In this document: positions 48,201-64,000 of the stretch, one piece after another | Position numbering within the stretch: the first letter of the stretch is position 1 | How the letters are laid out: each line of letters opens with the position of its first letter | NCBI RefSeq assembly: GCF_041431415.1 | Contig: NZ_CP107845.1 | Location: 6,634,001 to 6,698,000 of the forward strand | Direction: 5' to 3' | DNA length: 64,000 nucleotides | Origin: Streptomyces sp. NBC_00513 | Lineage (GTDB): Bacteria > Actinomycetota > Actinomycetes > Streptomycetales > Streptomycetaceae | Translations under genes and position numbers: made by a program | The notes under the pieces: generated by a model | What the model saw: the letters and a program-made list of their open reading frames with translations, nothing else | Told to the model about the DNA's origin: nothing | Database searches by the model: none

Positions 48201-48449
48201 CACCTCGGCGGTCGGCAGGACCACCTGGCGCGGTGCGCTGATCCGCTCGTGGACGAAGGCGGTGCGCAGGACGGGATGTCGGGCGGCGGCGGCCTGCCAG
48301 GCCGCCGTGAGGCCTTCGACGTCGAGGTCCCCGCTGACGCGGAAGGTGGTGAGCTCCACGTAGAGGCCGTGCTCCGGAGAGGTCGTGCTGTGGAAGAGCA
48401 TGCCCTCCTGGGCGGGCGAGAGCGGGTAGATGTCCTCGATGTTGTTCAT
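45300..48449 (-). CDS. NRPS module C-A-PCP
   Basis: 1049 aa from ATG 48449 (ATGA overlap with the PKS gene). Condensation domain with YPLSPAQEGMLFHSTTS and active-site YHHLLLDGWSAAL (HHxxxDG) near residue 140; adenylation domain (about 470-960) with YLIYTSGSTGNPKGVAVGHR, MYGPTETTVYSS, RMFRTGDHARVL, LKLRGYRIEPSEIE; carrier domain with GGDSLRAM about residue 1005. Pocket residues read by eye, D-T-A-Q-Y-C-M-V-Y, fit no common amino acid, so no substrate is predicted. It should extend the chain delivered by the KS-AT-KR-DH-ACP PKS. Confidence 0.93.
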   Translation of the reverse strand: MNNIEDIYPLSPAQEGMLFHSTTSPEHGLYVELTTFRVSGDLDVEGLTAAWQAAAARHPVLRTAFVHERISAPRQVVLPTAEVPVDFRDLSHLDGAARDTEIAGELDRRRREPFDLTRPPLMRLLVLRLPDEHLLVWTYHHLLLDGWSAALLMAEVTATLGGADPGRPAPPPFRDHIAWLRDQDADRDREFWTGHLAGYREPATLTLPGTRPGARPSGDYRRVSTTLPAGTTDRLRALAASRSTTLGSVVEAAWAGTLARYSGKQDVVFGVTVSGRPAGLERAGEMIGMFINTVATRARIDPELPADAWLSRYAQARHPILEHQHTPLTDVQRWAGLQPGVALFDSVVVFENYPDESRAALSGGAVITDVRYETRTNYAVTLVVRTGEETHLQAIVDSARFDEGEAEALLAHVAAVLTRFADRPQTPVGELLAVPEPVRALQLDRWNGTDIDRTPPRAFLADLIGAAVRDRPDHPAVVAGSTTYDYRALDARATALALRLVDLGVRAGDRVAVCLGRGADLVTALLGVARAGAAFVPLDPSHPADRIAYVLKDAAPTLVLTDGTPLPGPDSWNGAVLDLSRETLAHGAGEDGTRPDPTALPDADPDGLAYLIYTSGSTGNPKGVAVGHRALANLVDSLAFRHPGLTAEDRFLALTTLTFDTSLAELLVPLAVGATVHVGHRSLGLSGTELDRYVERHGITALQATPSRYRALLDSGWQGVDRPRLYSCGEAFPPDLTAPLTERGSSVWNMYGPTETTVYSSVEEIRKDTVRVTVGRPLSNTVLRVLDPADGLLPIGCVGELCIGGDGVAEGYWNLPELTAERFVGDPFTGGRTRMFRTGDHARVLPDGRVEVLGRIDRQLKLRGYRIEPSEIEAVLLDLTEVAGAAVAVRDGRLVAWTVPADRSAVLEPSWLAGELRRRLPSYMIPETFVGLAELPMTPAGKTDLLALRAPLPAPEGTPDAPAPEVAGTAEARGREELIAKLFRDVLSLPEVGLDDDFFELGGDSLRAMRLASKLQAELGAELDIELFFDASTVRELTAALAEALPESG

Positions 48450-51400
48450 TGCTTGTCCTCTCCGAACCCGAACAGGTTCATGACCTCTGCCAGGTCCTCG
48501 GTGCTGAGATCGGCGTCCGGGAAGGCGCCGGTGTCCGTGCGGGACGGTGTGTCGACGGCGGGGGCCGACCGGCCGGCCCCGGGTGTCCCGGACACCGCGC
48601 GTCCCCCGGACGCGGCCTCGGCCGCGTCGCGGAGGTGGGCGGCGAGGCCGCCCGCCGTCGGGTGGGCGAACAGGTCGCTCGGTGCCACGGCCAGGCCGAT
48701 GCGCTGGAGTTCGGCGGTGATCTGCACGATGGTCAGGGAGTCCGCGCCCAGCTCGAAGACGCTGTCGTCGGCGCCGATCCGGGGCACGCCCAGCATCCGG
48801 GACCACACCCCGGCGATCCGCTGCCCGACGTCGTCGGGGTCCACGGGCCGCGCCGCGTCGGCCGGGGCGTCGGTGCGGGGGGCGGCCGCCGTGCCGACCG
48901 CCGGTCCGGCGGCCGTGCCGGGCAGCGGGTGCGTCCGGCCGGCGCGCGGGCTCACCAGTACGTGCGGCAGGTGGCGGTTGCCGAGGATCCGTTCGAGGGC
49001 CAGCAGACCCCGCCCGGTGGGAATGCCGTCGGTGTCCGCCGGCCGGCCGGGCGCACCCGGGCGGTCCGCGCCGGCGGGCGCGGTGACCGCGCGCAGCACG
49101 AACCCCTCGACCGTCACCAGCGGGGAACCGTCCGGCGCGGTGAGGAACACGTCCGCGACCAGGGTGTCGTCGGCGACGGGGTCGCCGGACCGCATCACCA
49201 CGTGGGCGCGCAGCGCCGCGCCGAGCTCCCGGTGGACGATCATGCGCCGGTAGGCGACCGGCAGATGACGCCCCGACACGCCGGCCGCGGCGCCCGTCGC
49301 CACGTCCAGCAGCGCGGGGTGCAGCGGATGCGCCGCGAGGTCGCCGTGGAACGCCTCGGGCAGGCGCAGCGTCAGCACCGCCTCCGCGTCGCCCCGCCGG
49401 ATCCCGTCGAGGCAGTCCCAGCGGGGTCCGGTGGCCAGTCCCACGGCGCCGGTCGGGATGCCGTCTCCGGTCGGGGCGTCCGGGCGCCGGACCGCACCGG
49501 CCGTGACCTCGGCTTCGAGGGCCGCCCCGTCGGGGACCGCCGGCTCGGGGGCGGGGCCGTCGTACGCGGCGATCCGGCCCTGGCCGTGCGGGCGGGCGGA
49601 CGCGGACGAGCACACCTCCCAGTCGAGCCCGCCCCCCGCCGCGGGACGCAGTCGTACGGTCACCACCGCCGGGTCGGCCTCCGGAAGCCACAGCGGCCGG
49701 GTGAACACGGCGTCCAGCTCGACCGCCCCCGGACCCGCCACCAGGGCGTGCGCCGCGACGACGAGGTCGAGGAGCGCCGTGCCCGGCAACACGGGCTCGT
49801 CCGACAGCCGGTGTTCCGCGGACAGCCAGTCGGTGTCCGGGCCGGTGCGCAGCCTCAGCGCGGTCCAACCGTCCCCGCCGGTGTGACGGGCCTCGAACAG
49901 CGGGTGATCCAGTGGCTCGCCCGCCTCGTCCGGGGTGTTCCCGAGGGCGTGGCGCAACGCCATCCCGGTCTGCGACCAGCGGTCCCAGCCGATGGACACG
50001 AGGGTGTCGTCGGTGTGCGCGTAGCTGTCGAGGAAGGCGTTCGCGCCGCTGTAGTCGGCCTGCCCGGCGGCGTCGGTGACCGACAGGACCGAGGAACACA
50101 GCACGACGGCCGGGCGGTCGTCGGCCGTCAACCGGTGCAGCAGCAGGGTCCCGCGCACCTTGGGGGCCAGCACCCCGGCCACCTCCCGCCGGGTCCGCAA
50201 CGCCATCGTGCCGCCCCCGGGCAGGCCCGCCGCGTGCACGATCCCGGCGATCGGGCCGTGCGCGGCGCGGATCCGCCCGAGGGCGGACTCCAGTTCCCCG
50301 GCATCGGTGACATCGCACTGCACGAGGCAGACGGCCGCCCCGTGCCCGGTCAGTTCGGCCAGGGCCCGGGCCTGCTCCGGCGGGCAGTCGGCGGCCGGCG
50401 CGGCGCCCGCGGGGCGGATCGTGGTCCAGCCCGGACCGTCCGGCACCGGGCGTCGGCCCATCAGCAGCAGCGTGCGCCCGCCGTCCCGGGCGAGGCGCCC
50501 GGCGACGGCCAGGCCGATGCCGCCGAGACCGCCGGTGACCAGCCAACTGCCGCCCGGAAGGGCCGTGACGGGCGAAGCCGACGCCTCGTCCCCGGGGAGC
50601 AGCGCGGGCCGTTCCCAGCCGGGCACGAGACGAGCCCGCCCCCGGACGGCGGTCAGCGGCGCCGCCGGCCCCGCCGCGCGCAGCTCGACGAGGACCGCGT
50701 CGGCGGCGCGTTCCAGCGCCGGGGCGTCGTGGGGCGCGCAGTCGAGATCGAGGGCGCCCAGGGTGAACCCGGGCAGTTCGCCGGGCAGCGCGCGTACGGC
50801 ACCCATGGCCGTGGCGACCTGCGGGGAGCGGGGAGTACGGCCCTGCACACCGTGGGCCCCGTCGCTGACCAGCAGCATCCGTACCGGTCGGCCGGGGAAG
50901 GCGCCGCTGAGGGCCTGCGCCAGCTCGGCGGGCACCGTGAGGGCGAGCAGGGCGCCCCGCGCCACCTCGTCGGGGTCGGCGTGCTCCGCGTCGGGGGAGT
51001 CGACCGCCCAGCAGGAGACGACCGTGTCGATCACGTGGCCCCGGCCGGCCAGCTCACCGACCAGCGCGGTGAAGGCACCGGGGTCCTCGGGGTCGACGAA
51101 CCGCCCGGGGGTGGCGCCGCCGGCGCGGACCGGGGCGGCGGGGTTGCGGGGGAGGGCCCGTACGGTGTGGACCTCGGCGCCCGCCCGGACGAGCCGCGCG
51201 GCGATCCGGTCGGCCAACCCGGCCTCGTCGGCCAGGAGCAGGACCGTCCCGGGAGCGCCGTGCGGGTCGGCGGCGGGCGGCGCCGCCTGCGACCAGGACG
51301 GCACGCGGAGCCACTCGTCGACCGAACCCCCGGACGCGGAGCCGTCGACGCCCCCGGCGGAAGCGGTGCCCGCGGGCTCCGACGCCCCGGGAAGGGACCG

Positions 51401-54109
51401 GTCGCCGCGAGGGGCAGCCGTCGGCGTGAACCAGTGCCGGGCCGGCTCGAACGGGTAGCCGGGCAGCGGCACGCGCCGTCGTCCCGCCCGCTCCCCGAGG
51501 GCGGGCCAGTCGACGGGCACCCCTCGCTCCCACAGCCCGGCGACGGCCGTCAACCGGGCCGGAGCGCGGTCGGCGCCCCGCGCCGCGCCGGGGTCCGGGG
51601 CGTACAGGGACGGCAGGACGGGCCGCTCGGCCCCCGGGCTCCGTCGGGCGAACCCCGACAGGGCCTGCCCGGGGCCCGCCTCGACGAGCACGGCTCCCTC
51701 CGGCAGGGCGGCGAGCGCGTCCGCGAACCGCACGGTCCGCCGCATCTGCCGCGCCCAGTACTCGGGCGACCGGGCCTCCTGCGGTGTCAGGGCGCGCCCC
51801 GTCAGGGTCGACACCACGGTGACGGCCGGCGCCTGGGCGGGCACCGAGGCCACCAGCTTCGTGAACTCCTCCACCAGAGGGTCCACGTGCCGGCTGTGGA
51901 AGGCGTGCCGGACCCCGAGCGGGCGGCCCGTCACCCCCTGGTCCGCCAGCAGCGCGGCGAAGCGGTCCACCGCGCCCGGATCACCCGCCACCACACAGCG
52001 GTCGGGCGCGTTGACGGCGGCGATCTCCGGCAACGGCCCCGACTCGGGACCGAGTTCCCGGCCGAGCCGGTCCAGGTGCGCCCGTGTCTCCCGTTCGGGG
52101 AGCGGTACCGCGAGCATGGCGCCCGGGGCCATGCCCGCCATCAGCCGCCCGCGTTCGGCGACCAGCCGGGCCGCGTCCCGGAGCGTGAACACCCCGGCGG
52201 CGCACGCCGCGGCGAACTCCCCGACGCTGTGCCCGACCAGCGCGACAGGGCGGATCCCCACGGCCGTCCACCACGCGGTCAGCGCGTACTCGACGGCGAA
52301 GAGCGCCGGCTGCGCCACCTCGGTGCGATCGAAGAGGTCCGGGTGCGCGGGGTCCAGCAGCAGCGCCCGGGGCGTCGCCCCCGTCCAGGGCTCCAGGGCC
52401 TCCAGCGCACGGTCCAGGGCCTCGCGGAAGGCGGGTTCCGTCTCGTACGCCTCGGCGGCCAGGCCGGGCGCCCCGGCGCCCTGGCCGGGGTACAGCAGGA
52501 CGACGTCCGGCTCGCGGTCGGCGGCCCGGACGGGCCGGACCGCGGCGATCGGTCCGGCGGAGCCGCGGCGCGGCACGGGGACAGCGGCGCGCCAGGCGTG
52601 GGCGGTGCGCCCGATCTGGAGGGTGTGCGCGGCGTCGGACAGGTCCGGCGCGTCGGGCGCGGCGAGCGCGTCGTCCAGCCGGGCGGCGGCGCGCTCCAGG
52701 GCCTCGGGCGTGCGCGCGGACAGCGGGAGCACCTCCCACCCGGTGGCCTGCGGCGCGGGCCGGGCGGTGCGCGGCAGCGGCGGCGGGTCCTGGAGGATCA
52801 CGTGCGCGTTGGTGCCGCCGATCCCGAAGGAGCTGACGCCCGCGATCCGTGTCCCGTCCGGACGGGACCAGTCCTCGGCCGCCGTCAGGACGCGGAACCC
52901 CGTCTCGGCCAGGCCGTCGGTCGGCCGCTCGAAGTGGGCGGTGGGGACGAGGGTGCGGTGGTGCAGACAGAGCACGGTCTTGATCAATCCGGCCATGCCC
53001 GCGCAGGTGTCCAGGTGCCCCACGTTCGACTTGACCGCGCCGAGCACCCGCTCCGCGTCGGGGTCGGCTCCGAAGACCTTGGCCAGGGCGGCCAGTTCGA
53101 TGCGGTCGCCGAGCGCGGTGGCGGTGCCGTGCGCCTCCACGTAGGAGACCTCGTCGGCGGTGACCCCGGCGACCGCCTGCGCGGCCGAGATCACCCGGAC
53201 CTGACCGTCCATGCCGGGCGCGGTGAACCCGACCTTGCGGGAACCGTCGTTGTTCACGGCGGAGCCCAGCAGCAGCGCCCGCACCGTGTCGCCGTCGGCC
53301 ACCGCGTCGGCGAGCCGCTTGAGGACGACCGTGCCCACACCGCTGCCGAACACGGTGCCGGTGGCGGCCTCGTCGAAGGGCCTGCAGTGTCCGTCGGCCG
53401 ACAGGATGCCGCCCTCGGAGTGCAGGTAGCCGTGCCCCTGCGCCACCCCCGCCGACACCGCGCCGGCCAGGGCCACGTCGCACTCGCCGCTGAGCAGCGC
53501 CTCGCTCGCCAGGTGCACGGCGACCAGCGCGGAGGAGCAGGCGCTCTGCACGCTCATGCTCGGTCCGGTCAGCCCGAGCCGGTACGAGGTCTGGGTGGCC
53601 AGGTAGTCCTTGTCGCCGGAGGCGAGCCACTGGACGTCCGCGCGGTCGCCCAGTTCCCCGGCGTGGGGCAACAGATGGTGCGTGAGGTAGGAGTTGAAGC
53701 CCGCCGACGCGTACACGCCGATCGAACCGTCGAAGCCCTCGGCCCGCAGGCCGGCGTCCTCCAGCGCGGTCACCGCGCACTGGAGGAACAGCCGGTGCTG
53801 CGGGTCCATGAGCGCCGCCTCGCGGGGCGGGATCCCGAAGTACTCGGCGTCGAACTCGTCGATGCCGTCCAGGACACCGCCCGCCGGAACGAACCTGGGG
53901 TCGGCCAGGCGCTCGGCCGGGACCCCGAGGGCCGCGAGTTCCCCGGGTGTGCGGAAGCCGACGCTCTCCCGGCCGTCCACGAGGTTCGCCCAGAAGGCGT
54001 CGGCGTCGCGTGCGCCGGGGAACCGGCAGGCGAGGCCGATGACGGCGATCGCGTCCGGCAGGTCCGCCGAATCGGCGGATCCCGGTTCCCTGGTGTCCTG
54101 AATGGTCAT
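48446..54109 (-). CDS. Type I PKS module KS-AT-KR-DH-ACP
   Basis: 1887 aa. KS (about 20-440): active Cys in SVQSACSSALVAV, His in VEAHGTATALGD and SNVGHLDTCAG. AT (about 530-830): GHSVGEFAAAC, and HAFHSRHVDP, the malonyl-CoA type. KR (about 1000-1400): WLVTGGLGGIGLAVAGRL with Tyr/Asn in DYSGANAFLDSY. DH (about 1430-1700): EHRLSDEPVLPGTALLDLV and HPLHPALLDVATG. ACP near 1790 in ELGADSLTIVQI. KR precedes DH, the reverse of the usual DH-KR order. All catalytic residues look intact, so the product is a trans- or cis-enoyl extension by malonate. Follows the bimodular NRPS with a 66-base gap. Confidence 0.93.
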   Translation of the reverse strand: MTIQDTREPGSADSADLPDAIAVIGLACRFPGARDADAFWANLVDGRESVGFRTPGELAALGVPAERLADPRFVPAGGVLDGIDEFDAEYFGIPPREAALMDPQHRLFLQCAVTALEDAGLRAEGFDGSIGVYASAGFNSYLTHHLLPHAGELGDRADVQWLASGDKDYLATQTSYRLGLTGPSMSVQSACSSALVAVHLASEALLSGECDVALAGAVSAGVAQGHGYLHSEGGILSADGHCRPFDEAATGTVFGSGVGTVVLKRLADAVADGDTVRALLLGSAVNNDGSRKVGFTAPGMDGQVRVISAAQAVAGVTADEVSYVEAHGTATALGDRIELAALAKVFGADPDAERVLGAVKSNVGHLDTCAGMAGLIKTVLCLHHRTLVPTAHFERPTDGLAETGFRVLTAAEDWSRPDGTRIAGVSSFGIGGTNAHVILQDPPPLPRTARPAPQATGWEVLPLSARTPEALERAAARLDDALAAPDAPDLSDAAHTLQIGRTAHAWRAAVPVPRRGSAGPIAAVRPVRAADREPDVVLLYPGQGAGAPGLAAEAYETEPAFREALDRALEALEPWTGATPRALLLDPAHPDLFDRTEVAQPALFAVEYALTAWWTAVGIRPVALVGHSVGEFAAACAAGVFTLRDAARLVAERGRLMAGMAPGAMLAVPLPERETRAHLDRLGRELGPESGPLPEIAAVNAPDRCVVAGDPGAVDRFAALLADQGVTGRPLGVRHAFHSRHVDPLVEEFTKLVASVPAQAPAVTVVSTLTGRALTPQEARSPEYWARQMRRTVRFADALAALPEGAVLVEAGPGQALSGFARRSPGAERPVLPSLYAPDPGAARGADRAPARLTAVAGLWERGVPVDWPALGERAGRRRVPLPGYPFEPARHWFTPTAAPRGDRSLPGASEPAGTASAGGVDGSASGGSVDEWLRVPSWSQAAPPAADPHGAPGTVLLLADEAGLADRIAARLVRAGAEVHTVRALPRNPAAPVRAGGATPGRFVDPEDPGAFTALVGELAGRGHVIDTVVSCWAVDSPDAEHADPDEVARGALLALTVPAELAQALSGAFPGRPVRMLLVSDGAHGVQGRTPRSPQVATAMGAVRALPGELPGFTLGALDLDCAPHDAPALERAADAVLVELRAAGPAAPLTAVRGRARLVPGWERPALLPGDEASASPVTALPGGSWLVTGGLGGIGLAVAGRLARDGGRTLLLMGRRPVPDGPGWTTIRPAGAAPAADCPPEQARALAELTGHGAAVCLVQCDVTDAGELESALGRIRAAHGPIAGIVHAAGLPGGGTMALRTRREVAGVLAPKVRGTLLLHRLTADDRPAVVLCSSVLSVTDAAGQADYSGANAFLDSYAHTDDTLVSIGWDRWSQTGMALRHALGNTPDEAGEPLDHPLFEARHTGGDGWTALRLRTGPDTDWLSAEHRLSDEPVLPGTALLDLVVAAHALVAGPGAVELDAVFTRPLWLPEADPAVVTVRLRPAAGGGLDWEVCSSASARPHGQGRIAAYDGPAPEPAVPDGAALEAEVTAGAVRRPDAPTGDGIPTGAVGLATGPRWDCLDGIRRGDAEAVLTLRLPEAFHGDLAAHPLHPALLDVATGAAAGVSGRHLPVAYRRMIVHRELGAALRAHVVMRSGDPVADDTLVADVFLTAPDGSPLVTVEGFVLRAVTAPAGADRPGAPGRPADTDGIPTGRGLLALERILGNRHLPHVLVSPRAGRTHPLPGTAAGPAVGTAAAPRTDAPADAARPVDPDDVGQRIAGVWSRMLGVPRIGADDSVFELGADSLTIVQITAELQRIGLAVAPSDLFAHPTAGGLAAHLRDAAEAASGGRAVSGTPGAGRSAPAVDTPSRTDTGAFPDADLSTEDLAEVMNLFGFGEDKQ

Positions 54110-54175: not shown

Positions 54176-57100
54176 TCAGTTGGCCGGCGAGGTGCCGGAG
54201 CCGCCTCGCCGGCGGGCGGCGCGGCGCCTCTCGTGGTGCTGCCTGCGGTCGGTGACCGACTCGTCGGCGGTGGTGCCGGTAGTGCCAGTGGTGCCGGTGG
54301 TGCTGCCGGTGACGGTGGGCGGTTCGGTGGCGGCCTCCGGATCGGCCGGACGCGTCGCGGGACGCACCACCGGTGCCGGGTCGGCCTCCGGTCGGTCGAG
54401 CAGGTCGGCGAGGTGGCGGATCGTCGGCCGGTCGAACATCTCGACCACCGACACCTCCCGGCCGAACTCCTCGGTGACCCGGCGCTGGACGCGGACGAGG
54501 TGGATGGAGGTGGCGCCCGACTCGAAGAAGTTCGTGTCGATGCCCAACTCCTGCCCCTCCAGAACCTCCTGCCACAACGCGATGAGCCGGTCGATGGTGC
54601 TGCCCGTCGGACGCGCCACCAGCACGGCCCGCTCGACAGGGGCGACCTCGGCCGCGACCGGTGCGGCCACCTCCGGCGGGGTCGCCGCCGGTGAGACCGC
54701 CCGCGCGGCCAGCGCCTTGCGGTCCACCTTCCCGTTCGCCGACAGCGGCAGCGCGTCGATCACACCGACCCGCTGCGGCACCATGTACCCGGGCAGCCGC
54801 GCGGCCAGTTCGGCGCGCAGCGTCAGTGCCCAGTCCCGCGCGTCGTCCGCCGGCCCCGAGGCCGGGGCGCCCGAGGGCGGGCCGCCCACCAGGGTGTGCA
54901 GCACGCTCTGGTCCTCCTCCAACCGCAACAGCGCGCGCAGCGGCTCCGCGTGCACGGCACCGATCGGACAGAGCCCGAGACGACAGTCGGCGGCCCGCTG
55001 ACGCAGCACCTGCGCCATCGCACCGGCCTCCAACAGGCAGAACCCGCCGGACAGCTCGCCGTACACGGGTGTCACCGCGCGGTCGCGGGCGACGAGGAAG
55101 ATCCCGAACCCGGCGCCCGCCACGAGCGCCCGGTTGGCCTCGGAGAACAGCGCCGGGTCCAGCGCCCGACCGGCGTCCGGACCCGCGTCCAGCGAGACCA
55201 GGGCCGGACCGGCGGGGTCGAGGTAGTACACGCCCGCCGGGATCCCGGTGACCCCGCCCGGCGCCACCGCGAGGTAGGTCTGCACGGGGTACAGCCCGCC
55301 CGCCGAGCCGAAGGCGTACCGGGGCACACCGTCGTCGTCCTGCCGGGCGAGCGCCGTCAGCAGCGCGTACACGTCGGCCGCGGGCACGGGGCCGGCGCCG
55401 AAGGACGTGGCCGCGCCCCGACCGGCGGCCGACGCCCGCAGGGCGAGCGTGTCGGCGGGCAGGACGAACGGGAGGATCTCACGCCCCGCGAGGTCGGCGC
55501 GACGGCCGGGCTGGCTCAACCGCCGCTCCAGCAGCCGGGCCTGCTCGGCGCCGAAGACACCCGAAGCGCCCGGCTCCACGCCCGCCCCGACCGCCGTGTC
55601 CGACGGCCGCGCCGCCGGGTCGGCGACCGGGCGCGCCGCGTCGAGGACCACGTAGGCCGCGAGGCGGGCGGCCGTGCCGTGGCCCTCGACCAGCGCCGCG
55701 GCCTCGCGCACCCCCTCGGTGCGCACGAGGGCCGCCTCGATCTCGCCCAGTTCGATGCGCATGCCGCGCACCTTCACCTGCGAGTCCTGCCGGCCGAGGA
55801 ACTCCAGGTCGCCGTCGGGCAGCAGACGGGCCAGGTCGCCCGTGCGGTAGAGCCGCTCCCCGGTCACGGGGTGCGTGGGGAAGGCCCGCGCGGTCAGTTC
55901 CGGTGCGTTGCGGTAGCCCGCGGCCAGACCCACGCCGCCGATGAACAGCGCGCCGGGCAGTCCGGTCGGACGCAGCCGGAACGCCTCGTCCAGGACGTAC
56001 ATGGTCTGGTTTCGCATCGGCCGCCCGTACGGGATGCTCGACCGGTCCGGGTCGACGTCGCCGACCGGATGCAGCACCGACCAGATGGACGCCTCGGTGG
56101 CGCCGCCGAGACTGACGACCCGCGCCTTCGGGGCGACCTCCCGGACCTGGTCGGGCATGCCCACCGGGATCCAGTCCCCGCTGAGCATGACCAGGCGCAG
56201 GCTCTCGGCGGTGGCCGCGCCGTTGCCCGCCGTGTGGGCGAGCAGCATCTCCATGAGCGCGGGCACGGAGTTCCAGACGGTGACGCCGTGCTCGCCGACG
56301 AGCCGGTTCCAGCGCACCGGGTCGCGGTCCTCCCCGGGTCCCGCCAGCACCAGGGTGGCGCCGGCGGCGAACGTGCCGAAGAGGTCGTACACGGACAGGT
56401 CGAAGCCGAGCGAGGACAGCCCGAACAGCCGGTCCTCGGAGGTCACCCCGAAGCGCTCGTTGATGTCGACGACGGTGTTCAGGGCGCCCCGGTGATCGGT
56501 CATCACGCCCTTGGGGTCCCCGGTCGAACCCGAGGTGTAGATCACGTACGCGAGGTCGCGGGGATCCGTCGCCACCGGTTCGAGCGCCGCGTCGCGGCCG
56601 GCGGACGCGAGGGCCTCGTCGAAGCGGACGACGGCGACGCCGTCCGGGACGCGCTCGTGGACGGACGCGGCCGGGGGCACGAGCAGGGCCGAGGCGCCCG
56701 CGTGCCGCAGCGAACCGGCGATGCGGGCCGCCGGCAGACCGTCGTCCAGCGGGAGGTAGGCCGCCCCGATCCGGAGCACGCCGATGGCCGAGGCGATCTG
56801 CTCCCAGCCCCGGTCCGCGAGGACGCCGACCAGGTCGCCGGGGCGGACCCCGGCCGCGCGAAGGGCGTGGGCGACGGCCCGGGAGGCCTCCTCCAACCCG
56901 CCGTAGGTGAGGGTGCCGTTCGCGGCGATCACGGCGGTACGGCCGGGCGAGCGGCGGGCCCGGTCGAGGAACGGCTCGTGCAGCAGCCCGTCCGGGAGCG
57001 GCCCGTCGGTGGCGTTCAGCTCCCGGTACCGGGCGACCTGGTCGTCGGGGAGCACCTCGCGGTGCGGGTCGCCCCAGGCGTCGGCGTCCGTCGCGAGCGC

Positions 57101-60100
57101 GGTCAGCAGGCCGGTGTACGCGCCGAACATGTCGTCCAGCGTCCCCGGCGCGAACAGCGCCTCCACCGCGTCCCAGGTGAGCCGCAGCCGGCCCTCGTCC
57201 TCGCTGATCTGGTGGTCGAGCCAGACCTGCGGGGTCTGGGTGATGGTGTGCGCGACCCGGGCCCCGAGCCCGGCCGGCGGGGTGCCGCCCGCGTCGGCCG
57301 CGCCGAGTTCGCTGGTGAACACGACGGGCATGGCCGCCGCGGCCACCCCGCGCCGGCGGGCCAGTTCGCCGGCCACGCGCACGCCGCTGACGAGCTGGTG
57401 GTCCAGGTCCTCCCAGAGCCGCTCCTGCACGGCGCGGGCCCGCTCCTCGAAGGAGCCGCTGGTCGCGCGGTCCACCTCCAACAGGCTGAGCGCGGTGAAG
57501 TCGCCGACCAGCGTGTTCAGTTCGGGATGGTCGCCGACCCGGTTGAAGAGGGTCAGGTTGAGGGTGAAGCGGTCGCTGGACGACCAGGTGCCGAGCACGG
57601 TGGCGTACGCGGCCAGGGCGAGCGCCGACGGGGTGATCCGGGCGGCGGCGGCCCGCGCCTTCAGCCGGGACCACAGCTCGGCCGGGAGGTGCGCCTCGCG
57701 CCGCCGGAACCGGGTCTCGGCCAGTTCCCCGAGCTGCTTGACGAGCGGCAGCGGCGGCGCCGGCGGCAGGGTGTCCAGCCGCTCGCGCCAGTAGGCGAGG
57801 TCACGCTCGTGCCCGGGCCCCGTGCGTCGGGCCTGCTCGGCCATGACGTAGTCGCGGAAGGACAACTCCATCGCGTGCGGGACGAGTTCGCCCCGGTAGA
57901 CGGCGAGCAGCTCGCGCAGCAGGATCTGGACGCTGCCGCCGTCCGCGATGAGCGTGTCGATGCTGAAGTGCAGCCGGGCCGCGCCCCCGTCGGTGTGGCT
58001 CGCCCGGATCTGGAACAGCGGCCAGGTCTCGGCGGGCAGCACGTGGTGGGACATCGTGTCGCGGATCGCCCGCAACCGGGTCTCGCGCTCGGCGGCCGGC
58101 AGCGCGCGCAGGTCGGCGCGCTCGATGCGGTAGTCGGGCACCTCGGGGAGGATGCGCTGGGTGCCGTCCGTGTCGACGACCAGGCGCAGGGCGTCGTGGC
58201 GTCGGACGAGGGACCGCCAGGCGCCTTCCAGACGGTCCAGGTCCACGTCGTCGACGTCGAGTTCGACGAACAGGTGGCAGGACACGTCTCCGCCGACGGC
58301 GCCGCTGCGGCCGATCCAATAGGCGCGCTGCACCTCGGTGAGGGGGAACGGTTCGTGCCGGGTCGCCGGGTCCGGCAGCAGCGCCGCCGGTCGCTCCGAC
58401 CGCTCCGTGTCGTCGCCGGGGTCGGCGGCGCCGTCCGCCCGCGCGTCCACGCCGCGGGCCAGGGCCGAGACGGTCGGCGCCTCGAACAGCGTGCGCAGCG
58501 GGAGCCGGGTCGAGAACGCGCGCCTGATCCCGGCGACGACCTGGGTGGCGAGCAGCGAGTGGCCGCCCAGTTCGAAGAAGTCGTCGTGGACGCCCACCCG
58601 TTCGACGCCGAGGGCCTGCTGCCAGATCGCCGCGATCCGCTCCTCGGTGGGGGTGGAGGGCGCGACGTACGCGCCGCCGACGGCGCGGTCCGTGTCGGGC
58701 GCCGGCAGCGCTCCCCGGTCCACCTTGCCGTTGCTCGTCAACGGCAGCGCGTCCAGCACGACGAACCGCGAGGGCACGAGGAAGCCGGGCAACCGGGCGG
58801 CCAGCGCGGCACGCAGGTCGGCGGCGGCCGGAGGGGAGTCCGGGGAATCGGGCACCACGTACCCGATCAGGGACGCCCGGGCGGTGCCGAGCCCGTGCGC
58901 GGTCACCACGCTCTGGCGGACGCCGGGCACGGCGGTCAGCGCGGCCTCGACCTCGCCGGCCTCGATCCGGAAACCGCGGATCTTGAGCTGGTCGTCGTTG
59001 CGGGCCAGGTACTCCAACCGGCCGTCGGGCCGCACCCGGACGACGTCACCCGTGCGGTACAGGCGGGCCTCGGCCGATCCGGCGCCGTCGGGGCGGGACG
59101 CCGCGGCGGGCTCCGGCACGAAGCGCTCGGCGGTGAGTTCCGGGCGCCCGAGGTAGCCCGCGGTCACGCCCGCGCCGCCGATGTACAGCTCGCCGGGCAC
59201 GCCGACGGGCGTGCGGCGGCCGTGGTCGTCCAGGACCCGTACGGTCGTCCCCGCGACGGGGCGGCCGATGGTGACGGCGCCCGACACCGGGTCCACGGTG
59301 TCACTGGTGGACCACACGGTGGTCTCGGTCGGCCCGTACATGTTCAGCAGCGAGCCGGTGAGGTGCTCGTGCAGCCGGCGCGCGAGGTCCGCGTCCAGGG
59401 CCTCCCCGCCGAGCAGGAGTCGGCGCAGCCCGCCGAGCGCCGCCGCGTCCGGTTCGTCCAGCAGGACGCGCGCCAGCGACGGGGTGCACTGGAGGTGCGT
59501 CACGCCGTGGGCGCGGATCAGCGAGGTCAACGGGACCTCCTCCGCGTCCGGTTCCCCGGACTCCGTCGCGCGGGCCTCCGGTTCGGACCGGTTCAGCGCC
59601 CGCGAACGCAGCGCGGCCAGGCCGGTGAGCGCGCGGAGCGCCGCGTCGGGGTCGACACCGAAGTCGACGAGGCAGGCGACCTCGTCGACGCCCGCGCCCG
59701 CGAGCCGCCCCAGGAGGGGCAGCCGATCCTCGACGGTTCCGATGAAGGAGCCGTCCGTGAGGTAGCGGGCCGCCGCGTGGTCGAGCAGGGCCTCCTGGTC
59801 GTCCGCGCTGAAGTCGTCGGCGCGGACGTCGATGCCGAGGGTGGCCGCCATCTTCTCGATCAGCCCGACGGAGGACCGCAGGTAGTCGCGGAACGGCTGC
59901 CGGGCGTGCGCCCGCACGTCCTCCGCGTCGTCCCCGATGAACGTGTGCAGCATCAGCGTCACGTGCGGCTCACCCGCGTGACCGGCGCTCCGCCAGGCCT
60001 CGCGGTAGATCGCGATCCGCTCGGTCAGCTCCTCGACGCTCTGGCCGAGCAGGTGCGTGAGCAGCCGCGCGCCGATCTCCCCGGCCTTGCGGCAGGTCTC

Positions 60101-62989
60101 GGGATTGCCGGACGAGGTGAGCCAGAAGGGAAGTTCGGGCTGGACCGGGCGCGGCATGACCGCCACGTCCACGCTGCGGCCCGAGGGCCCCTCGAAGGCG
60201 ACCCGGTCGCCGCGCCACAGCCTGCGCACCTCGTCGATGCCCTCGACCATGAGCTTCTGCCGGTCCTCGTACGCGTCCTTGGCGAGGACGAAGTCGTCCA
60301 CGTGCCAGCCGGAGGCGAAGGACAGACCGACCCGGCCCCCGGACAGGTTGTCGACGACCGACCACTCCTCCGCGACCCGGACGGGATGGTGCAGCGGCAG
60401 CACCACGCTGCCGGCCCGGATCCCGATCCGTTCGGTGCTCTGCGCCAGGGCGGCGGCCAGCACAGACGGCGCGGGATAGGACCCGCCGAACGCGTGGAAG
60501 TGCCGCTCCGGCAGCCACACGGAGCTGAAGCCGTGCGTGTCGGCGAACCGGGCGCCCTCCATGAGGAGCCGGTACTGGGCCGGCCCCGGGGCGTGCGCCT
60601 CGGAGTCGCTGGAGAAGTAGAAGAGGCTGAACTCCGGTACGACGACGGGCGCGGCCGTGGTCGGCGCGGGCTCGGCGGCCCGGCGCGCGACGCCGGTGGA
60701 GGTCCCCGCGTCGGGGCTCACGACCACCCGGTGACCGCGGCTGATCGTCCACAGCAGTTCCAGCACGGAGATGTCGAAGGAGACGCTGGTGACGGCGAGC
60801 CAGGTGATCGGCTCGGCGTCCGCCCCGCTCGCGCCCCGCGCGTCGTCCCGGCCCGTGACGATCCGGTCCATCGCGGCGAGGAACGCCGTGAGGTTGCGCC
60901 GGAGCACCACCACGCCCTTGGGCCTGCCGGTGGAACCCGACGTGTGGATGACGTACGCGGGGGCCTCGGGGTCGTGCGACCCGCCGTCGGCGGCGGGCGC
61001 GGACGGCACCGTGTCCGTGTCGGCCGCGTCGAGGTCGAGCAGCGGCGCCCCGGAGGGCACGGCGTCCCGGGTCCCGGCGTGCACCAGCACGGCCGAGGGG
61101 GAGGCGTCCTCCAGGACGAAGCGGATCCGCTCCGCCGGATAGCCGGGGTCGAGCGGCAGGTACGCGGCCCCGGCCCGGAGCACGGCGAACAGCGCGGCGA
61201 CGAGATCGGCGCCGCGCCGCAGACAGACGCCGACCCGGTCCCCGGGACGGACGCCCGCGGCCAGCAGCCGGGCCCGGATCTCCTCGATCCGCGCGTCGAG
61301 CGCGCCGTAGGCGAGCGCCGGCCCGTCGGGGTCCGAACCCGACAACAGGGCCGGTGCGTGCGGCCGTTCGCGCACGGCGCGGGCGAGGGACACGAGCACG
61401 TCCTCGGCGTCCGCGGGCAGCGGTCCGCCGTCGCCGGCGAGCGCCGACAGCGCCTCCTCGGCGGGAGTGAGCGCCAGCAGCTCGGAGAGCGGCAGCGACG
61501 GGTCGGCCGTACCGCGCCGCAGGACGCGTTCCAGGGTCTCGGTCCAGGACCGCACGGTGTCCGCGTCGAACAGGTCGGCGCTGAACTCGCAGACCCCGGT
61601 GGTGACCTCTCCCGAGCGGGCGAGTTCGAGACTGAGGTCGGTGCGGCACAGCCCGTTGTCGAGGTCGACGAGTTCGACGGCCACGTCGGGCAGCGAGATC
61701 GCGGGAGCGGGCACGTTCCGGTAGCCGAACTGCACCTGGTAGAGCGGCGCGTGGCTCAGATCGCGATCCGGGCTGAGATCGCGGACCAGACGCTCGAAGG
61801 GCACCTCGGCGTGGGCGAGGGCGCCCAGCGCGGTCTCCCGCGCCCGGCCGACGAGCTCACCGAACGTGGGGTCCCCGGCCAGGTCGGTGCGCATCACCAG
61901 GGTGTTGATGAACATGCCGACCATGCCACCCAGTTCCGGACGGTCCCGACCGGCCGTCGGCACGCCGACGACCACGTCCTGCTGTCCGGAGTGCCGCATC
62001 AGCACCGCCTGCCAGGCGGCGAGCGTCACCATGAAGGGCGTGGCCCGAGCCTGCCGGGCGGCCTCCTCGATGCCCTCCGTCAGCTCCCGGTCCAGGGTGA
62101 GGTGCACCCGACCGCCGCGGTGCGAGGGGGTGGCGGGGCGCGGACGATCGCCGGCCAGGGAGAGCAGCGGAGGGGCGTCGGCGAGCCGCTCGCGCCAGTA
62201 GTCGAGCGGCCGCGCCAGCGCCTCGTCGGTGAGCTCGACGCGCTGCCGCGCGGCCCAGTCGCCGTACTGGACGGGCAGCGGCTCGCGCCCGCCCCGCGGG
62301 CCGCCGGCGCCGCCGGGCAGGCCGTCACGGAACGCGCGGTAGCCCGCGCACAACTCCTCCACCAGGACGGCGCGCGACCAGGCGTCGCCCACCATGTGGT
62401 GGTTGACCACGACCAGCAGGGCGCGGTCCGGCGCGGAGCGGATCAGCACGGCCCGGAAGAGCCGCTCGCCCTCCAGGTCGAAGGGCCGGCGGGCCTCCCG
62501 CTCGGCGAACTCCCGCTCGGCGGCGTCGATTCCGTCGGCCGCACCGGGATCGAGGTCCACCACCGTGAGTACCGGCTCCGACCCCGGACCCGAGACCGGC
62601 GCCGGGTCCAGCACCCGCTGTACCGGCCGCTCGCCCGAGGGGTCGACGACGGTGCGCAGCGCCTCGTGTCGGACCACGAGGCCCTTCAGCGCCGCGTCCA
62701 GCGCCGCCCGGTCCAGCGGACCGGTCAGCCGCAGCGCCACGTACTCGTTGAACACTCCTAGCCCCGGAGTGAGTTGATCGAGGAACCACAGTCGTTCCTG
62801 GCCGAAGGAGAGCGGCGCGGGGACATCCGCGTCCCGCCGCGGTGTCACCGGCACGGCGACCGGCGCGGTCGGCGCGGTGGCGTTCCCCCGGGTACGTGCC
62901 TCGAACCTGGCGCGCTGTTCCGGAGTGAGCCGGGCCAGGCGCTCCGCGCGTCCGGCGTCCGCCGGGGGGCGGCCTGCTGAGTCGGTCAC
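54176..62989 (-). CDS. Bimodular NRPS: C-A(Gly, monooxygenase inserted)-PCP-Cy-A(Cys, oxidase inserted)-PCP
   Basis: 2937 aa from GTG 62989 (GTGA overlap with the upstream PKS gene). Module 1: C domain (PLSFGQERLWFLDQL; NHHMVGDAWSR), A domain split by a luciferase-like monooxygenase, PCP (ELGGHSLLATQVV). Module 2: heterocyclisation domain with FSIDTLIADGGS (DxxxxD), A domain with a McbC-type oxidase between A8 and A10, PCP (ESGATSIHLVRV). By-eye pocket residues: module 1 D-I-L-Q-L-G-M-V-W, close to the Gly code DILQLGLIW; module 2 D-L-Y-N-M-S-L-I-W, close to the Cys code DLYNLSLIW. Predicted product segment: oxidised Gly followed by a thiazole. The C-terminus carries a GTTGTTGTT repeat and a basic tail. 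Confidence 0.93.
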   Translation of the reverse strand: MTDSAGRPPADAGRAERLARLTPEQRARFEARTRGNATAPTAPVAVPVTPRRDADVPAPLSFGQERLWFLDQLTPGLGVFNEYVALRLTGPLDRAALDAALKGLVVRHEALRTVVDPSGERPVQRVLDPAPVSGPGSEPVLTVVDLDPGAADGIDAAEREFAEREARRPFDLEGERLFRAVLIRSAPDRALLVVVNHHMVGDAWSRAVLVEELCAGYRAFRDGLPGGAGGPRGGREPLPVQYGDWAARQRVELTDEALARPLDYWRERLADAPPLLSLAGDRPRPATPSHRGGRVHLTLDRELTEGIEEAARQARATPFMVTLAAWQAVLMRHSGQQDVVVGVPTAGRDRPELGGMVGMFINTLVMRTDLAGDPTFGELVGRARETALGALAHAEVPFERLVRDLSPDRDLSHAPLYQVQFGYRNVPAPAISLPDVAVELVDLDNGLCRTDLSLELARSGEVTTGVCEFSADLFDADTVRSWTETLERVLRRGTADPSLPLSELLALTPAEEALSALAGDGGPLPADAEDVLVSLARAVRERPHAPALLSGSDPDGPALAYGALDARIEEIRARLLAAGVRPGDRVGVCLRRGADLVAALFAVLRAGAAYLPLDPGYPAERIRFVLEDASPSAVLVHAGTRDAVPSGAPLLDLDAADTDTVPSAPAADGGSHDPEAPAYVIHTSGSTGRPKGVVVLRRNLTAFLAAMDRIVTGRDDARGASGADAEPITWLAVTSVSFDISVLELLWTISRGHRVVVSPDAGTSTGVARRAAEPAPTTAAPVVVPEFSLFYFSSDSEAHAPGPAQYRLLMEGARFADTHGFSSVWLPERHFHAFGGSYPAPSVLAAALAQSTERIGIRAGSVVLPLHHPVRVAEEWSVVDNLSGGRVGLSFASGWHVDDFVLAKDAYEDRQKLMVEGIDEVRRLWRGDRVAFEGPSGRSVDVAVMPRPVQPELPFWLTSSGNPETCRKAGEIGARLLTHLLGQSVEELTERIAIYREAWRSAGHAGEPHVTLMLHTFIGDDAEDVRAHARQPFRDYLRSSVGLIEKMAATLGIDVRADDFSADDQEALLDHAAARYLTDGSFIGTVEDRLPLLGRLAGAGVDEVACLVDFGVDPDAALRALTGLAALRSRALNRSEPEARATESGEPDAEEVPLTSLIRAHGVTHLQCTPSLARVLLDEPDAAALGGLRRLLLGGEALDADLARRLHEHLTGSLLNMYGPTETTVWSTSDTVDPVSGAVTIGRPVAGTTVRVLDDHGRRTPVGVPGELYIGGAGVTAGYLGRPELTAERFVPEPAAASRPDGAGSAEARLYRTGDVVRVRPDGRLEYLARNDDQLKIRGFRIEAGEVEAALTAVPGVRQSVVTAHGLGTARASLIGYVVPDSPDSPPAAADLRAALAARLPGFLVPSRFVVLDALPLTSNGKVDRGALPAPDTDRAVGGAYVAPSTPTEERIAAIWQQALGVERVGVHDDFFELGGHSLLATQVVAGIRRAFSTRLPLRTLFEAPTVSALARGVDARADGAADPGDDTERSERPAALLPDPATRHEPFPLTEVQRAYWIGRSGAVGGDVSCHLFVELDVDDVDLDRLEGAWRSLVRRHDALRLVVDTDGTQRILPEVPDYRIERADLRALPAAERETRLRAIRDTMSHHVLPAETWPLFQIRASHTDGGAARLHFSIDTLIADGGSVQILLRELLAVYRGELVPHAMELSFRDYVMAEQARRTGPGHERDLAYWRERLDTLPPAPPLPLVKQLGELAETRFRRREAHLPAELWSRLKARAAAARITPSALALAAYATVLGTWSSSDRFTLNLTLFNRVGDHPELNTLVGDFTALSLLEVDRATSGSFEERARAVQERLWEDLDHQLVSGVRVAGELARRRGVAAAAMPVVFTSELGAADAGGTPPAGLGARVAHTITQTPQVWLDHQISEDEGRLRLTWDAVEALFAPGTLDDMFGAYTGLLTALATDADAWGDPHREVLPDDQVARYRELNATDGPLPDGLLHEPFLDRARRSPGRTAVIAANGTLTYGGLEEASRAVAHALRAAGVRPGDLVGVLADRGWEQIASAIGVLRIGAAYLPLDDGLPAARIAGSLRHAGASALLVPPAASVHERVPDGVAVVRFDEALASAGRDAALEPVATDPRDLAYVIYTSGSTGDPKGVMTDHRGALNTVVDINERFGVTSEDRLFGLSSLGFDLSVYDLFGTFAAGATLVLAGPGEDRDPVRWNRLVGEHGVTVWNSVPALMEMLLAHTAGNGAATAESLRLVMLSGDWIPVGMPDQVREVAPKARVVSLGGATEASIWSVLHPVGDVDPDRSSIPYGRPMRNQTMYVLDEAFRLRPTGLPGALFIGGVGLAAGYRNAPELTARAFPTHPVTGERLYRTGDLARLLPDGDLEFLGRQDSQVKVRGMRIELGEIEAALVRTEGVREAAALVEGHGTAARLAAYVVLDAARPVADPAARPSDTAVGAGVEPGASGVFGAEQARLLERRLSQPGRRADLAGREILPFVLPADTLALRASAAGRGAATSFGAGPVPAADVYALLTALARQDDDGVPRYAFGSAGGLYPVQTYLAVAPGGVTGIPAGVYYLDPAGPALVSLDAGPDAGRALDPALFSEANRALVAGAGFGIFLVARDRAVTPVYGELSGGFCLLEAGAMAQVLRQRAADCRLGLCPIGAVHAEPLRALLRLEEDQSVLHTLVGGPPSGAPASGPADDARDWALTLRAELAARLPGYMVPQRVGVIDALPLSANGKVDRKALAARAVSPAATPPEVAAPVAAEVAPVERAVLVARPTGSTIDRLIALWQEVLEGQELGIDTNFFESGATSIHLVRVQRRVTEEFGREVSVVEMFDRPTIRHLADLLDRPEADPAPVVRPATRPADPEAATEPPTVTGSTTGTTGTTGTTADESVTDRRQHHERRRAARRRGGSGTSPAN
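54880..55560 (-). other. Thiazoline oxidase (McbC/SagB-type) domain inserted in A2
   Basis: About 225 residues between motifs A8 (VKVRGMRIELGEIE) and A10 (LPLSANGKVDRKAL) of the Cys-specific adenylation domain. Nitroreductase-fold marks: GRREI-like GREILPFVLPADT, SFGAGPVPAADVYAL, and YAFGSAGGLYPVQTYLAV. This is the arrangement of EpoB, MtaC/D and BlmIII, where FMN oxidation turns thiazoline into thiazole. Confidence 0.85.
59590..60660 (-). other. Luciferase-like monooxygenase (seco-metabolite LLM) inserted in A1
   Basis: About 355 residues between core motifs A4 (FDISVLELLW) and A5 (NMYGPTETT) of the Gly-specific adenylation domain. Typical bacterial-luciferase-fold marks: FSLFYFSSDSEA, GFSSVWLPERHFHAFGG, IGIRAGSVVLPLHHPVRVAE, WSVVDNLSGGRVGLSFASGW, MLHTFIGDD and CLVDFGVDPDAALRAL. 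This insertion type is known in MtaG of myxothiazol, where it hydroxylates Gly at the alpha carbon, and I recall one in althiomycin, where Gly becomes an oxime. Confidence 0.87.
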
Positions 62990-64000
62990 TGGTTCTCCAG
63001 GTCGGCGAGAATACGGTCTTCGATGTCCACGGCGAGATCGGCCACACGGCCGCCCTCGAAGAACGCCCGGGCGGGCACGTCCACCCCGAACTCGGCACGC
63101 AACCGCGCCACGACCTGCGCGGCGAGCAGCGAATGACCGCCGAGGTCCAGGAAGTCGTCGTGGATGCCCACCCGGTCGATGCCGAGCATCTCGCCGTAGA
63201 TCTCGGCGAGGCGCTCCTCGGTCGGCGTGCCCGGCGCGGTGTAGGCGGTGGCCAGCTCCGGGCGCGGCAGCAGGGTGGTCGAGGGGCGGGCGGCGGTCGG
63301 TTCGGCGGTCAGCCGCAGCGTTCCGTCGTCCGTGACCTCCGCGCCCGCGCGGGCCACCACGCCCTGTCCGCCGGGGCCTTCGAGCAGCGCGGCGAACGCC
63401 CGCGTCCCCTGGGCGGGGGTGAGGGCGCCCGCGAGCATGCGCTCCTGGAGGGCGCGCAGGTCGGCCGGGACCTCGGCGTCGCTCGCCATGCCGACCGAGG
63501 CCCACATGTCCCAGTTCACCGTGATGACGCGACGTTCGCCGCGCGCGTCCTCGGCCTCGCCGGCCGCCGCGAGGTAGCCGTTGGCCGCCGCGTAGTCGGC
63601 CTGCCCGTAGGTGGGCACGAGGGTGGCCAGCGAGGAGCAGAGCAGCAGCGTGCCCGCCTCGCCCGGCCGCAGGGCGGCGAGCAGGTTGCGGATGCCCGCG
63701 GTCTTGGGGGCGAACACCGCGCGGGCCTCGTCGTCGTCGCGCAGTTCCACGGAACCGCCGCCGGGGACGCCGGCCGCGTGCACGACGCCGTCGATGCCGC
63801 CGAAGGTCTCGCGCACGCGGTCCAGCGCCTCGGCGAGGGAGTGCGCGTCCGCGACGTCCGCCCGCAGGCAGAGCACCTCGGTGCCCCGCGCCCGCAGGTC
63901 CCCGACGAACTCCGCGGCGGGCCCCTCGTCCTCGTCGGTGACCGGGTGCCGGCCCAACAGGGCGATACGCGCTCCGGCCGTACGGGCCAGATGGCCGGCC
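62986..64000 (-). CDS. PKS C-terminal end: KR-ACP (5' end outside window)
   Basis: The gene enters from the right edge of the window; about 338 codons are visible. The visible part starts inside a ketoreductase Rossmann fold (GHLARTAGARIALLGRHPVT), continues through GIDGVVHAAGVPGGGSVELR and CSSLATLVPTYGQADYAAAN with Tyr/Asn, and ends with a carrier domain (GIHDDFLDLGGHSLLAAQVV). It hands its chain to the C domain of the bimodular NRPS, whose GTG start overlaps its stop codon. Upstream domains (KS, AT or others) are not visible. Confidence 0.9.
   Translation of the reverse strand, partial: AGHLARTAGARIALLGRHPVTDEDEGPAAEFVGDLRARGTEVLCLRADVADAHSLAEALDRVRETFGGIDGVVHAAGVPGGGSVELRDDDEARAVFAPKTAGIRNLLAALRPGEAGTLLLCSSLATLVPTYGQADYAAANGYLAAAGEAEDARGERRVITVNWDMWASVGMASDAEVPADLRALQERMLAGALTPAQGTRAFAALLEGPGGQGVVARAGAEVTDDGTLRLTAEPTAARPSTTLLPRPELATAYTAPGTPTEERLAEIYGEMLGIDRVGIHDDFLDLGGHSLLAAQVVARLRAEFGVDVPARAFFEGGRVADLAVDIEDRILADLENQ

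Follow-up and report, generated by a model that had tools for sequence, protein, structure and literature searches.

A single nonribosomal peptide synthetase (NRPS), P0001, carries two different oxidases in consecutive adenylation (A) domains. It lies in a stretch of 64,000 nucleotides of Streptomyces sp. NBC_00513, the whole of which we call the window. The first A domain (A1) has a glycine-like pocket code and is interrupted by a luciferase-like flavin monooxygenase (LLM); the second (A2) has a cysteine-like code and is interrupted by a thiazoline-oxidase-like domain (Ox). Both insertions, proposed in a first-pass annotation of this DNA, are seen by domain and family matches. In our best reading, to which we assign a probability of roughly 0.57, an alpha-hydroxylated glycine would be retained, the chain would continue, the next cysteine would become a thiazole through Ox, and a polyketide synthase (PKS) would extend the product. 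P0001 predicts, in other words, a mid-chain acyl-alpha-hydroxyglycyl-thiazole.

Each kind of insertion is already known singly. Among the matches listed in our search of the open-licence literature, we recognized no description of both kinds in consecutive A domains of one synthetase, no characterized cluster with the same order and more than 80% identity, and no product for this cluster family. Two papers on interrupted A domains (PMC8097286, PMC8949500) and a review of marine peptides (PMC10608164) hold, in the portions available to us, no match to the P0001 arrangement. What is new here, as judged from alignments, is a putative Ox that lacks the flavin-contacting arginine of the thiazoline oxidase BmdC throughout a 29-member family and keeps the tyrosine. 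Such a uniformly altered FMN site offers a direct way to ask what an embedded Ox needs.

Domain order and the inserted monooxygenase

P0001 (2937 amino acids, GTG start; 54176..62989, minus strand) has the order C-A1[LLM]-PCP-Cy-A2[Ox]-PCP, and all of its domains are given on the same strand. The C domain (61454..62818), found by Pfam and by its motif HHMVGDA, keeps the two histidines and the aspartate in 29/29 proteins of the family. It is followed by A1 (58715..61402), which is split by the LLM (59606..60631), and by the first carrier protein domain (PCP1; 58454..58642), whose GGHSL motif is present in 29/29 family proteins. The second module consists of a heterocyclization (Cy) domain with the motif DTLIAD (57035..58354), A2 (54620..56965), split by Ox (54815..55582), and PCP2 with the tail after it (54320..54547). 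Pfam reports two Condensation stretches, Bac_luciferase at residues 792-1037, two PP-binding domains, and AMP-binding in three stretches because A1 is split by the insert. The C, Cy and PCP motifs are intact, as judged by conservation across the 29 family proteins. Pfam domains and neighboring genes also bear out the context first described, with a C domain before A1[LLM], Cy after it and PKS modules on either side. We infer that P0001 is a two-module, mid-chain NRPS that acts between two PKS proteins in colinear order.

The LLM matches the MupA/Atu3671 family model TIGR04020 (NCBIfam) over its whole length (residues 787-1128; model positions 1-341 of 341) with 494 bits against a cut-off of 244, and it matches PuwE (6KET) with an E-value of 1e-113. 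The core motifs A4, A5, A8, A9 and A10 of A domains have recognizable patterns, by which they were placed in P0001. The LLM begins at residue 787, past A4 (735) and ahead of A5 (1215), in agreement with the insertion point originally assigned. Among 92 non-family proteins, 85 LLM columns reach a conservation of 95% or more, and P0001 keeps 83 of these.

The A1 pocket code, DILQLGMVWK, is identical in 26/29 family proteins and the A2 code, DLYNMSLIWK, in 20/29 (P0001 included in both counts). Read by motif and set against published codes, they are presumably close to the codes for glycine and cysteine, respectively, the order that had been read by eye. Setting A1 and A2 against A domains of known structure told us no more about their substrates.

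Flavin site and selection in the Ox insertion

The Pfam Nitroreductase match to Ox is weak (residues 2530-2702; E-value 1e-4; 22.8 bits against a cut-off of 23.5), and the match to BmdC has an E-value of 8e-25. An AlphaFold model of Ox, of moderate confidence (mean pLDDT 59.7), matches BmdC, ThcOx and McbC. Ox lies past A8 (2406) and ahead of A9 (2732) and A10 (2750), which narrows the earlier A8/A10 placement to A8/A9. It thus follows a Cy domain and sits between A8 and A9 of a cysteine-coded A domain, the placement of EpoB-type A-Ox domains; in EpoB, Ox is described as inserted between A8 and A9 (PMC8795117).

As reference sites for Ox we took the FMN contacts described for BmdC (PMC8795117), with the numbering set from the BmdC alignment and the offset fixed by Tyr260 and Asn236. 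The equivalents of the catalytic Tyr260, of Asn236 and of Gly294 are each kept in 29/29 family proteins. Arg149 of BmdC makes contact with the flavin ring; its counterpart is Thr2528 in P0001, and across the family (n=29) it is Thr in 24, Asp in two, and Ser, Ala and Val in one each; Arg occurs in none. The site is anchored by Phe151, found in 29/29 family proteins, with Phe or Tyr there in 39/40 Ox domains from elsewhere. In these 40 domains (41 matches minus P0122, a cut family member with Asp at the Arg149 site) the Arg149 equivalent is Arg in 36, His in three and Ala in one. P0033 is counted in the 29-row alignment, though it is blank at the Arg149 stretch in another alignment. P0138, which is epothilone synthetase B according to its source, has His, so that Arg149 may not be strictly defining for EpoB-type Ox domains. 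Nearby positions differ in degree: the phosphate-side Arg146 equivalent is Gly in 27/29 family proteins, at a site that varies elsewhere (Arg in 19/40); the Ser147 equivalent is Ala in 21/29 (Ser in 32/40 elsewhere); and the Arg145 equivalent is kept in 24/29 (33/40 elsewhere). A loss of conserved FMN-site residues, which the first-pass annotation had considered for both insertions, is partly seen in Ox, through the Arg149 equivalent; the LLM keeps nearly all of its conserved columns.

In five pairs of sequences the dN/dS of Ox is 0.37, 0.28, 0.24, 0.20 and 0.20, which indicates purifying selection. For comparison, Cy ranges from 0.15 to 0.37, A2N from 0.19 to 0.28 and the LLM from 0.05 to 0.27. 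In the closest pair (the window and Streptomyces sp. H27-H5), Ox, at 0.37, ranks second from the top among nine segments; only A2C+PCP2 is higher, and Cy (0.15), A2N (0.22), LLM (0.05) and C all fall below it. With Arg149 gone but Tyr260 kept, and with selection purifying, oxidation of thiazoline to thiazole by this domain is plausible, not assured.

Family distribution and gene cluster

A search with the A1-LLM part of P0001 scored 7981 candidates and found 6794, of which we examined the best 120; with P0001 these make 121 proteins. A1-type and LLM matches are present in 121/121 (92 of them outside the double-insertion family), so LLM-interrupted A domains are common. Both LLM and Ox occur in 29/121, P0001 included, and all 29 have the order LLM-Cy-A2-Ox, which argues that the double insertion is not due to chance. 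Their sources, where named, are Streptomyces, Kitasatospora, Actinacidiphila, Plantactinospora, Dactylosporangium and Amycolatopsis. One protein, P0042, is truncated ahead of Ox. In four proteins (P0027, P0029, P0030 and P0032) a C-A module comes after the LLM module. In a midpoint-rooted tree of the LLM, the double-insertion proteins and these four group in a single clade (34 members, support 1.0), within which the four are nested. From this nesting, having both insertions looks like the ancestral state, with the thiazole module replaced in the four. P0143 was considered as a further member and set aside, since its LLM match is only 28% identical and lies outside an A domain; it is a different Ox and LLM fusion.

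Among 392 Streptomyces genomes, the LLM is found at an E-value of at most 1e-60 in 150, and at an identity of at least 77% in six, the window's own genome included. Scanning genome contigs yielded 19 loci, of which ten are Streptomyces members, one (L066) is a sibling in Kitasatospora and eight are more distant. Ox is present in 8/10 Streptomyces member loci; the exceptions are L059, which ends at a contig edge, and L074. In L074 (Streptomyces sp. DHE7-1) the synthetase reading frame stops within the LLM, from a damaged copy or a sequencing error. One family member (L065) is carried by S. griseofuscus DSM 40191, a strain for which published genetic tools are described and 29 biosynthetic gene clusters are reported as unknown (PMC8443760); L065 presumably corresponds to one particular region among those 29.

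A sibling cluster (L078) lies on a linear plasmid of S. cellulosae (NZ_CP109223.1). It shares with the window a cassette of hydroxylase, PKS and C-A[LLM], with identities of 78% for the beta-hydroxylase, 66% for the PKS, 61-71% for C, 58-64% for A1 and 73% for the LLM (58-78% overall). The identity drops at PCP1 (45% at the matching place), after which comes a C-A module and not Cy-A-Ox. The sibling differs further in having dpgA-D, tryptophan halogenase and lysine aminomutase genes nearby. Its C domain ahead of the LLM is divided between two annotated genes, and the copy may therefore be damaged or wrongly sequenced; in P0027, P0029 and P0032 the C domain before the LLM lies within one protein. 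The LLM-glycine cassette seems to be a unit that recombines at the carrier protein, which would make it of use for engineering.

The upstream PKS (KS-AT-KR-ACP, 1534 amino acids; minus strand) has its 3' end at 62986..64000, continues for 3590 bases beyond the window, and overlaps P0001 by 4 bases. The downstream PKS (KS-AT-KR-DH-ACP; 48446..54109, minus strand) has the AT motif HAFH; its identity to the counterparts in other genomes is 60-63% in four and 92% in H27-H5. It is followed by an NRPS module C-A-PCP (45300..48449, minus strand; 69-98% identical in five other genomes) and an A-PCP didomain (43421..45232, minus strand). In the downstream PKS the DH (1402-1680) comes after the KR (1187-1378). 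KR followed by DH is the reverse of the usual PKS order.

Read from right to left, starting beyond the window, the genes encode an M28 peptidase, a GNAT acetyltransferase, C-A-PCP-C-A-PCP-TE, a thioesterase on the other strand, an Asn synthase, an Asp/Glu racemase, A-PCP, C-A-PCP-C-A-PCP, an Asp/Asn beta-hydroxylase, KS-AT-KR-ACP, P0001, KS-AT-KR-DH-ACP, C-A-PCP and A-PCP. We compared this region with five other Streptomyces genomes: S. litmocidini (G291), S. hygroscopicus NBRC 3401 (G003), S. rimosus WC-3904 (G048), S. caniscabiei (G248) and Streptomyces sp. H27-H5 (G167). The order NRPS, hydroxylase, PKS, NRPS, PKS, NRPS is kept in all five, and the genes are 54-84% identical in the first four and 92-98% in G167. 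There are two exceptions: G248 shows no TE-bearing NRPS gene within the stretch read, and the final A-PCP is variable. This didomain is 96% identical in G167 and 59% in G291 and G048; G003 has a 41% match elsewhere only, and G248 none above 40%. For the other A domains, the pocket codes gave no readable substrate.

Several further genes lie around this core. Argininosuccinate-synthase-like and ATP-grasp genes at the cluster end (40864-43424, minus strand) occur in the window strain and G167 only, among the stretches of the six genomes that were read. The M28 peptidase (88587-90710 in window coordinates continued; L013:8587-10710) has about six hydrophobic segments, adjoins the GNAT gene and is kept with the cluster; together with the Asn synthase and Asp/Glu racemase, these two could form a self-protection or prodrug-release set. 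An NRPS of 5214 residues lies at 104067-119711 (window coordinates continued; L011:2067-17711), some 5-7 kb from ABC transporter ATPase and FecCD genes (97043-98937), and these are possibly a separate siderophore cluster.

Predicted product and alternatives

The route we favor would build on the observed domains, their order and insertion points, the pocket codes, and the conservation, selection and gene order described above. The C domain would link glycine to the chain delivered by the KS-AT-KR-ACP protein upstream; on the carrier protein, the LLM would hydroxylate the alpha-carbon of the glycyl unit. The resulting carbinolamide would keep its hydroxyl and be handed to the Cy domain, which would condense cysteine and cyclize it to a thiazoline; once Ox had oxidized this to a thiazole, the chain would be extended by the KS-AT-KR-DH-ACP protein downstream. 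The route is favored by the full-length LLM at twice the family cut-off, the conserved glycine- and cysteine-like codes and the intact C, Cy and PCP motifs, and also by the PKS genes on both sides, the 4-base overlap, the kept gene order and the Ox omega of 0.20-0.37. That the chain goes on after the LLM is suggested by the cassettes of S. cellulosae, P0027, P0029 and P0032, in which an ordinary C-A module follows. An LLM-glycine module that stands before either Cy or C favors continuation over terminal cleavage, without amounting to proof. Counting against the route are the loss of Arg149 in 29/29, the looser Ox in the closest pair, the moderate-confidence Ox model, the division of the S. cellulosae C domain between two genes, and the reading of the pocket codes by motif.

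Solanimycin provides the closest retained example. Its SolF has a flavin monooxygenase (FMO) in a mid-chain glycine module after a PKS, and the alpha-hydroxyglycine is described as retained in solanimycin B (PMC10204066), so that a mid-chain residue of this kind already has a precedent. SolF differs in its insertion point (a8/a9) and in the dehydroalanine residues that follow, and the account in PMC10204066 describes no thiazole; the different position weighs against our reading. The glycine hydroxylase of skyllamycin is described as a separate enzyme (PMC10204066), and we dropped Epoxinnamide/skyllamycin as a precedent on this ground (PMC9321520, PMC10204066). Palmerolide was likewise dropped as a case of an LLM in a glycine A domain, the LLM being placed in module 9, a PKS module (PMC8739492). 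TioS of thiocoraline also has two interrupted A domains in one synthetase; both of its inserts are methyltransferases, as described in PMC8949500, and not two kinds of oxidase. MtaG, MelG, SolF and EpoB are likened to P0001 by description; among the proteins compared, only P0138 carries such a name, given by its source.

We take MtaG and MelG to be the monooxygenase-bearing synthetases of myxothiazol and melithiazol. The FMOs of these two systems are described as inserted at a4/a5 of a glycine A domain, where the carbinolamide is cleaved to a C-terminal amide (PMC10204066), and P0001 shares with them both insertion point and amino acid. A corresponding mid-line cleavage would release the upstream chain as a primary amide and leave a glyoxylyl-PCP that primes a second chain, leading to a 2-formylthiazole. 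We regard this outcome as unlikely. By description, cleavage in MtaG and MelG goes with a thioesterase that comes next; no thioesterase ends the line right after A1[LLM] in P0001, where PCP-Cy-A-PCP and then a KS protein follow (PCP-C in siblings), and acyclic alpha-hydroxyglycine is reported to survive in solanimycin B and spergualin (PMC10204066). Less probable still is N-oxidation by the LLM, which would place an N-hydroxy-glycine amide or an oxime beside the thiazole. Althiomycin lends it some weight: Alb4 of the Serratia pathway likewise has glycine and then cysteine modules, the first cysteine becomes a thiazole, and the first glycine is proposed to carry an oxime beside it (PMC3445576). 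The N-oxidation there is proposed for a separate protein, Alb2, acting in trans, and that account describes no inserted monooxygenase in Alb4, so althiomycin fails, for Serratia, as the inserted-monooxygenase precedent named in the first-pass annotation. In addition, the C domain would acylate the nitrogen, which leaves no room for an oxime while the amide stays, and those inserted FMOs that PMC10204066 names all act on carbon.

Two further alternatives turn on the altered flavin site. Ox might be a structural or dead insertion, so that the product keeps its thiazoline, as could be read from the absence of the Arg149 equivalent in 29/29 when Arg (36/40) or His (3/40) stands there elsewhere. 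We give this little credence, because the Tyr260, Asn236 and Gly294 equivalents are kept in 29/29, selection is purifying, and P0138 also does without the arginine. BmdC itself, a separate protein of the bacillamide system (BmdB/BmdC), shares with P0001 and EpoB-type A-Ox a cysteine module with an FMN-oxidase-fold domain (PMC8795117 and the structure match); the FMN-contacting Arg of BmdC is Thr in P0001. On chemical grounds one can also imagine a redox-neutral pairing, in which the LLM hydroxyl supplies the oxidation level for aromatizing the neighboring thiazoline and the Ox fold serves as a dehydratase or isomerase. Dehydration of the thiazoline carbinolamide, together with two proton shifts, would lead to a thiazole next to an unsubstituted CH2, with no net oxidation by FMN. 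This would fit the loss of Arg149 in all 29 with the Tyr base kept, and would mean that an ordinary glycine-thiazole is made by a new route; we consider it a long shot.

Returning to the predicted acyl-alpha-hydroxyglycyl-thiazole, we looked at colibrimycin as a possible relative. The sources at hand name it as a halogenated PKS-NRPS product, or as a polyketide or lipopeptide, without cluster detail. Scanning 30 proteins around the window turned up no halogenase, but the sibling cluster has one, so we neither claim nor exclude a link. Spergualin comes from Bacillus laterosporus, that is, Brevibacillus laterosporus (PMC10204066), and one of our loci (L072) is from this species. Its assignment as the spergualin cluster is unsupported, since the six ORFs scanned contain several NRPS modules but no PKS; the L072 synthetase, C-A[LLM]-PCP-C, adjoins a gene of the beta-lactamase fold.
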